52,010 nucleotides of DNA, from positions 1 to 52,010 of the forward strand of contig JACDHS010000015.1 of NCBI GenBank assembly GCA_013820875.1, in the 5' to 3' direction. Of this stretch, positions 18,491 to 34,205 are shown piece after piece. A program made the position numbers and the translations under genes. The stretch is from Verrucomicrobiota bacterium (GTDB taxonomy: Bacteria; Verrucomicrobiota; Verrucomicrobiia; Limisphaerales; JACDHS01). The stretch's first letter is position 1; every line of letters starts with the position of its first letter. The notes under the pieces were generated by a model. It ran no database searches, was not told the DNA's origin, and saw nothing but the letters and a program-made list of their open reading frames with translations.

Positions 18491-18759
18491 GTCTGATCCC
18501 GCCGGACACAAACCTTTTTCCGCGGAATTGCCTCTGATCCCGCGTGGATTGAACTTATTTCCGCGGAAATAAGTCTGTGTCAGGCGGGAATGAAGAATTT
18601 TCTGCGGAAACAAGTCTGTTTCACGCGGGATTGAAACATTTTCCGCGGAAAATGTTCCATTACAGGCGGGAACAAAGAATTTTGCGCGGAAAAATGTTCA
18701 TTCCACGCGGACAAAGACTTATTTCCGCGGAAAAGGGTCCATGTCCGCGTGGAAAATAG
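18491..18759. repeat. Alternating-palindrome tandem array 1 (about 41-bp period)
   Basis: Six and a half diverged units alternate a palindrome centred on CCGCGG (TTTTCCGCGGAAAA-like) with a second GC-rich core. Core positions are 18539, 18581, 18622, 18663, 18704 and 18744, a spacing of 40-42 bp. The palindromes at 18553-18574 and 18635-18656 are perfect over 22 bp although their outer arms differ (acttat versus aacatt). The second core reads CCCGCGTG in one unit and CACGCGGG, its reverse complement, in another; the units at 18704 and 18744 are likewise exact reverse complements (CACGCGGA/TCCGCGTG). The period is not a multiple of three, so the array is not coding. Confidence 0.9.
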
Positions 18760-33365: not shown

Positions 33366-33374
33366 GGGGGGCAG

Positions 33375-33501
33375 TTTGGACTGCGCTGGCAGAGCGCAGC
33401 GGCGACAGCGCTTTCGGGCGCATTAAGCACCAGGAAAATGAAAACTCCGCATTGGGCGTCCGAAAGCGGTGTCGCCGCTTCGCTTGCCACCGCAGTCCAA
33501 A
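33375..33501. repeat. Inverted-repeat element, about 45-bp arms
   Basis: The left arm begins tttggactgcgctggcag (33375-33420) and the right arm ends gccaccgcagtccaaa (33457-33501). The arms are complementary along most of their length, including gcggcgaca and cgctttcgg, around a 36-bp loop. It looks like a dispersed palindromic repeat and starts 10 bp after the upstream stop codon. Confidence 0.8.
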
Positions 33502-33516
33502 TTCGTCTTCTTCATT

Positions 33517-33847: not shown

Positions 33848-34160
33848 GTGCAAAACGGCCCTCAAAAAGACTTTTTTGGCCAATGTCAGGACCGTCTGGC
33901 CATTGAAACGGACTTTTTTGGCCAAAGTCAGGACTGACTTTGCTCAAAAAAGTCTTTTCCAGCCAATGTCAGGACTGACTTTGCCCAAAAAACTCTTTTC
34001 CGGCCAAAGTCAGGACCGACTGCCCACCCAAACGGACTTTTTTGGTCATTGTCAGTCCTGACTTTGCTCAAAAAAGTCTTTTCTGACCGTTGTCAGTCCT
34101 GACTTTGGCCAAAAAAGTCTTTTTTACGCAAAGTCAGGACCCGCCGGCCTCCAAAAAACC
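33848..34160. repeat. Alternating-palindrome tandem array 2 (41-bp period)
   Basis: About seven diverged units follow the pattern GACTTTG-CCC-AAAAAAGTC then TTTTTTGGCCAAAGTCAGGA. Each unit has a long AT-centred hairpin (GACTTTG…CAAAGTC) and a short GTCA-N4-TGAC hairpin. The short core reads GTCAGGACTGAC at 33927 and 33968 but the reverse complement GTCAGTCCTGAC at 34051 and 34092, with exact 41-bp spacing within each pair. The AT hairpin centre also switches between GAC (33869) and GTC (33952). The array is nearly strand-symmetric, and its period is not a multiple of three. Confidence 0.92.
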
Positions 34161-34205
34161 TTCGCGATTCAATTGCCGGTTCCAGGCTGAACACTTGACT
34201 TATTT

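Follow-up and report, generated by a model that had tools for sequence, protein, structure and literature searches.

A ladder of near-palindromic 41–42-bp units, apparently internal to a dispersed, MITE-like element of a Verrucomicrobiota genome

Within a 52,010-nt stretch of DNA from a Verrucomicrobiota bacterium (hereafter, “the window”) lies a tandem array of seven near-palindromic units, array 2, the short cores of which are found in both orientations. We consider it probable, at roughly 60%, that array 2 forms the interior ladder of a MITE-like mobile element, old and non-autonomous, ~310–340 bp in length and resembling BOX elements in its general build. Such an element would consist of an edge, n tandem units of ~41 bp, and a second edge, with the whole block having been copied to ~10 places in the genome. 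The near-palindromic nature of the units would allow recombination or template switching within the array to use another unit as donor, whichever way that unit is oriented, and copying from such a donor could reverse the non-palindromic centres. Array 2 belongs to a lineage-specific class of ladders, which we would group with BOX-like MITEs as a variant form.

The original prediction was of about seven units at 33848–34160. Direct-repeat analysis bears this out, with seven units of 41–42 bp at 33864–34149; 38-nt copies begin at 33864, 33906, 33947, 33988, 34030, 34071 and 34112, i.e., with a spacing of 41–42 nt. The units are nearly palindromic, the array is rich in inverted repeats, and no gene lies within the array 2 element. 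Superimposed on the single-unit period is a higher-order repeat of three units (124 bp). The features are as follows:

33864..34149, strand not assigned: array 2, seven 41–42-bp units (from the copy register; TRF periods 41 and 124)
33864..34111, + strand: higher-order repeat, in which units 1–3 (33864–33987) recur as units 4–6 (33988–34111) with 81% identity
33846..34158, + strand: dispersed element, as common to other copies in the genome, with left edge CCGTGCAAAACGGCCCTC and right edge GGCCTCCAAAAAA

The span of the dispersed element is that aligned, in whole or in part, by copies on contigs C27, C43, C87, C20, C60, C239, C2 and C189. A search for the units elsewhere in the 5.7-Mb genome (239 contigs), which had been proposed as a check, was productive: there are ~10 dispersed copies with 77–96% identity, including those on C27 (96%), C43 (94%), C87 (91%), C20 (83%), C60 (82%) and C239 (77%); on C2 and C189, only part of the element is present. 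Several copies stop at contig ends, as expected for multi-copy repeats. The copies align unit for unit, and sister copies are 91–96% identical, as compared to 66–82% between the units of one array. Because copies are more alike across places than units are within an array, the block of seven units arose first and was copied later. The number of units differs between copies, with one extra unit in each of L005 and L006 between shared edges; hence, these elements have the BOX-type layout of a variable number of tandem units between conserved edges. We found no copies of array 2 in 57 other genomes of the order, and the genes beside it are not syntenic in the relatives that we compared in looking for empty sites. 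A phage or plasmid origin was considered and set aside: array 2 has no match in a phage collection or a plasmid collection, and the one match of the core in a viral contig is isolated, falls where there is no array of this kind and is attributed to chance.

The sequence GTCAGGACTGAC occurs twice and GTCAGTCCTGAC twice, at the positions originally given. The motif that covers both, GTCAGNNCTGAC, has exactly four occurrences in the window, all in array 2 (GGAC cores at 33927 and 33968, GTCC cores at 34051 and 34092), against 0.02 expected from shuffled sequences, with none of 100 shuffles reaching four. The four short cores are:

33927..33938, + strand: short core of unit 2, GA orientation (exact motif search)
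33968–33979, + strand: short core of unit 3, GA orientation (exact motif search)
34051..34062, + strand: short core of unit 5, TC orientation, private to the window copy (GA in five sister copies)
34092..34103, + strand: short core of unit 6, TC orientation, the same in every readable sister copy

Across units 1–7 of the window, the short cores read GA, GA, GA, GA, TC, TC and GA, and the centres of the AT cores read GAC, GAC, GTC, CTC, GAC, GTC and GTC. This pattern had been taken to mean that the left and right halves of the array favour opposite orientations, as if part of it had been inverted. The split is weak. Since units 4–6 repeat units 1–3, the AT cores are alike at units 2/5 and 3/6, and their centres track the three-unit repeat. 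Exact core reversals do exceed the expectation from point mutation, so this half of the claim stands; the inversion of an array part does not. Over all copies, read in family orientation, the core dinucleotide is GA in 29 cases, TC in 9 and AA in one, and with the exception of that single AA, one-step intermediates such as GC and TA are absent. Unit 6 is TC in all five of the full copies that can be read there; therefore, its TC state predates dispersal.

A live or recent inversion switch, in which part of the array is flipped through recombination between inverted arms, would produce core states that are exact reversals, in an array as rich in inverted repeats as this one, but we regard it as highly improbable. 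The orientation pattern is largely common to all copies, and the AT cores follow the three-unit repeat as opposed to a left/right division. The sole change specific to the window, in unit 5, has unchanged flanks and a direct donor immediately adjacent: neighbouring unit 6 offers an 18-nt direct match, as compared to 16 nt for the best inverted donor, so simple copying from unit 6 suffices.

Orientation exchange in either direction within the quasi-palindromic array is nevertheless real in sister copies. When units were compared in both orientations, as originally suggested, direct and inverted donors were both found among them. In copy L004, unit 4 has GAG in place of CTC and is an exact 31-bp inverted copy of that array's own unit 7; the 31-nt stretch has no direct donor. 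In copy L003, the inverted donor for unit 3 (15 nt) is better than the direct donors (8–12 nt). Since each unit is a quasi-palindrome, copying can proceed either way round. We conclude that the flips are short, local, one-way copying events inside a quasi-palindromic array and not a switch. Exact “flips” in palindromic arrays can come from copying between units, which is a trap for readings that invoke a switch.

The predicted RNA fold of array 2 lies 10–11 SD below that of dinucleotide shuffles on both strands. Folds of this stability (z about −10) are what would be expected if the array were transcribed into RNA hairpins that act as small RNAs, decoys or mRNA 3′ ends, yet an equal fold on both strands is expected of tandem palindromes in any case. 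Several observations make this explanation quite unlikely. Hairpin arms are not kept by compensatory change between units: in 30 arrays, 309 of 737 doubly variable cells are complementary, as compared to 324 ± 9 after shuffling, and an excess of compensatory arm changes is confined to family C arrays. The palindrome is not universal, with little of it in families E, L144 and L096, and several arrays and families of the class are without an unusual fold. There is no Rfam match at the gathering score and only miRNA-type chance matches below it, and no promoter- or terminator-like site is found around array 2. Two family C ladders, L115 (12441–12825) and L057 (10824–11178), alternate CGACAGGCTGTCG and CGTCAGGCTGACG.

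Array 2 is one of many such ladders. In a 1.81-Mb sample of the genome, arrays were called with TRF, joined from rows with a period of 40–44 and its multiples, and sorted into families with BLAST, giving 91 arrays that fall into ~30 families, most of them unrelated in sequence; in nearly all, the unit is 41–43 bp long. Among the 69 arrays with ≥3.5 copies and a unit of ≥15 bp, 66 have a period of 42 (31 arrays), 41 (26) or 43 (9), with three having other periods. Cyclic comparison of 31 representative units on both strands gave a median of 14, as compared to 13 for shuffled units, with ~3% of pairs excepted. What is conserved is the step, not the sequence, and not always the palindrome. The density of ~1 array per 22 kb, leaving out contigs picked for holding a hit, suggests a total of roughly 200–260 ladders in the genome, a figure that may be high because contig starts are over-represented in the sample. 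No protein family recurs beside the arrays. Six arrays with a period of 41–42, but with sequences of their own, occur in G001, which represents another genus of this family (197 kb read), and no array with a period of 40–44 was found in ~417 kb around dnaE (28 other loci, from more distant Verrucomicrobia), where ~19 would be expected at the present density. Array 1 of the window (18503–18754) is of the same class, with a 41-bp step and a TTTCCGCGGAAA palindrome; its sequence family, unrelated to that of array 2, makes up at least 13 of the sampled arrays.

Bacterial tandem repeats usually vary in period by family, whereas here ~30 families, and six in another genus, share one step. We found no description of tandem palindromic repeats of such a period in the open-licence literature, and no known system that we found explains the shared step of 41–43 bp. 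One unlikely explanation is that these are plain satellite-like tandem repeats, which would owe both period and sequence to a single old ancestor, the step itself being under no selection. A few pairs of families do have part of the unit in common, and the arrays of families D, C and E are homogeneous inside, as such an origin would predict. However, most family units are unrelated, being alike only at the level of shuffled sequences; drift by single indels should have spread the period beyond 41–43; and there is phasing of AT steps at a quarter of the period (see below). Family E arrays have eight, four and two units between shared edges; the edges vary, with too few readable copies to decide on 5′ truncation of the retro type. 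A generator resembling a reverse transcriptase or telomerase was also considered and dropped, the genome having a single weak, partial reverse-transcriptase match.

The step corresponds to four turns of DNA. For A/T dinucleotides in 27 families, the share of the fourth harmonic (~10.4 bp, a quarter of the unit) is 0.158, as compared to 0.080 ± 0.014 for dinucleotide shuffles and 0.083 ± 0.015 for intergenic DNA from elsewhere (0 of 400 for either null), and 0.075 ± 0.016 for palindromic random units. No other harmonic is as prominent. In the six families of the second genus, the share is 0.122, which is not significant (P = 0.12). A four-turn unit in which the AT steps are phased favours a function in double-stranded form. 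From the 41–43-bp step together with the helically phased AT steps, we infer that the step is maintained by an agent that works on the DNA duplex, which would most likely be a protein bound every fourth helical turn, i.e., a transposition complex or a nucleoid protein, with the ladder presumably serving as its platform. The shared four-turn step suggests a physical ruler that works on DNA. More specifically, and tentatively, this lineage might possess some protein or process by which tandem ladders of any sequence are maintained or built, provided that they have a four-turn step (41–43 bp) and AT steps on one face; we see this as possible but doubtful. Were it true, each genome would contain a couple of hundred sequence-diverse landing platforms.

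Evidence on mobility comes from a terminal motif, CCTDAAAMCGGCAGTTNAA, which has 190 matches in the genome when searched as CYTNAAANCGGCAGTTNAA, as compared to 12 for the reversed control. Inverted pairs of CCTDAAAMCGGCAGTTNAA bound array-free elements of ~150–210 bp. They also bound family D elements of 550–620 bp, the interior of which is a 42-bp ladder, and family D copies on C58, C18, C227 and C109 start or finish exactly at the inverted motif. The family D elements with terminal inverted repeats (TIRs) are:

L131, 1466–2046: family D element bounded by a CCTDAAAMCGGCAGTTNAA pair
C18, 23822–24412: family D element bounded by a CCTDAAAMCGGCAGTTNAA pair
C227, 3076–3694: family D element bounded by a CCTDAAAMCGGCAGTTNAA pair
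C109, 90250–90798: family D element bounded by a CCTDAAAMCGGCAGTTNAA pair

Twelve TIR pairs were read, of which five are flanked by a 5-bp target duplication (GTGAA, TTAAT, GTGGA, CTGAA and ATCAA) and one by a duplication of 4 bp. The GTGGA duplication flanks the ladder element at L131, so TIRs with a target duplication are established for one ladder family, D; the other four exact 5-bp duplications belong to array-free elements. Array-free CCTDAAAMCGGCAGTTNAA MITEs with 4–5-bp target duplications lie at L071 10109–10280, L098 10606–10770, L100 10376–10552, L142 456–630 and L150 17359–17534. The interiors of elements with CCTDAAAMCGGCAGTTNAA TIRs hold short repeats, e.g., CGCTAATC and CACAGATG.

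Of 50 full arrays, 15 have CCTDAAAMCGGCAGTTNAA at a distance of no more than 350 bp, as compared to 6.5% of control positions, and most array families are without recognized ends. Near array 2, a motif search of the window returned one degenerate copy:

34168..34186, − strand: degenerate CCTDAAAMCGGCAGTTNAA copy with two mismatches (match CCTGGAACCGGCAATTGAA)

This copy is likely the right terminus of the array 2 element. In sister copies L066 and L070, CCTDAAAMCGGCAGTTNAA lies 30–75 bp to the right of the array, and in L056 it lies 54 bp from the array. In the window, neither a clear left TIR nor a target duplication accompanies array 2, which shows only the degenerate right end. The ends of array 2 would be terminal repeats of the same kind as those of family D, and a transposase would have moved the element. 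The ladder and the CCTDAAAMCGGCAGTTNAA TIR are separable, because the motif is not enriched in G001, which carries ladders. In several distant genomes of the order, CCTDAAAMCGGCAGTTNAA is moderately above control (50 vs 12 in G054, 33 vs 4 in G034; also in G029 and G018).

We found no intact transposase with CCTDAAAMCGGCAGTTNAA ends in the genome. There is a truncated remnant of an IS1380 transposase on C188, and a TIR starting with CCT combined with a 5-bp target duplication is in keeping with the IS1380 family. In this form the elements resemble IS1380-type MITEs, but the remnant is not bounded by CCTDAAAMCGGCAGTTNAA, and MITEs mostly have no internal ladder. As a partner for the elements, the remnant was set aside because no matching TIR lies around it; the link is a lead only. 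TIR-bounded candidates L074 and L147 carry host genes, and L074 (2000–3742) was rejected as an autonomous element because its genes encode a DUF6370 protein and an unknown protein, with no transposase.

Of the described repeats, BOX elements of Streptococcus pneumoniae and S. suis, with their boxA-boxB(n)-boxC build, offer the closest comparison in layout (PMC3049150). Both are small, dispersed, intergenic elements with conserved edges and a variable count of tandem units of similar length. Inverted ends, here those of family D, are a further likeness, as are a proposed mobilization by a transposase in trans and a frequent occurrence in clusters with other repeats or as insertions into them (PMC3049150). 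In contrast to the one boxB type of S. pneumoniae (PMC3049150), the present genome has a couple of hundred arrays in ~30 mostly unrelated families with one 41–43-bp step, and its ladders reach ~10 units with helically phased AT steps. The apparent likeness is one of build only, and the host phylum differs; we do not claim membership in the BOX family. As regular arrays of intergenic repeats, some families of which have a conserved leader, the ladders also recall CRISPR, but they have no spacers, let alone unique ones, and it is the whole unit that repeats.

Palindromic, intergenic, dispersed sequences in alternating orientations are likewise typical of REP/REPIN/BIME elements with RAYT (PMC3733652). 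Array 2 could be an element of this kind moved by a RAYT (Y1) transposase; it is palindromic, intergenic and dispersed, and there are seven Y1 matches in the genome. We nevertheless consider this very unlikely, since the RAYT genes that we examined have other REPs of ~100–140 bp on their flanks in place of the 41–43-bp arrays, which also differ in having a fixed period. In the window, positions 33371–33511 comprise a quasi-palindrome of ~140 bp with at least 10 copies. A Y1/RAYT gene on C134 has a copy of it on either side (L069 6099–6238 and 6900–7039), and this quasi-palindrome is probably the REP element of the C134 RAYT.
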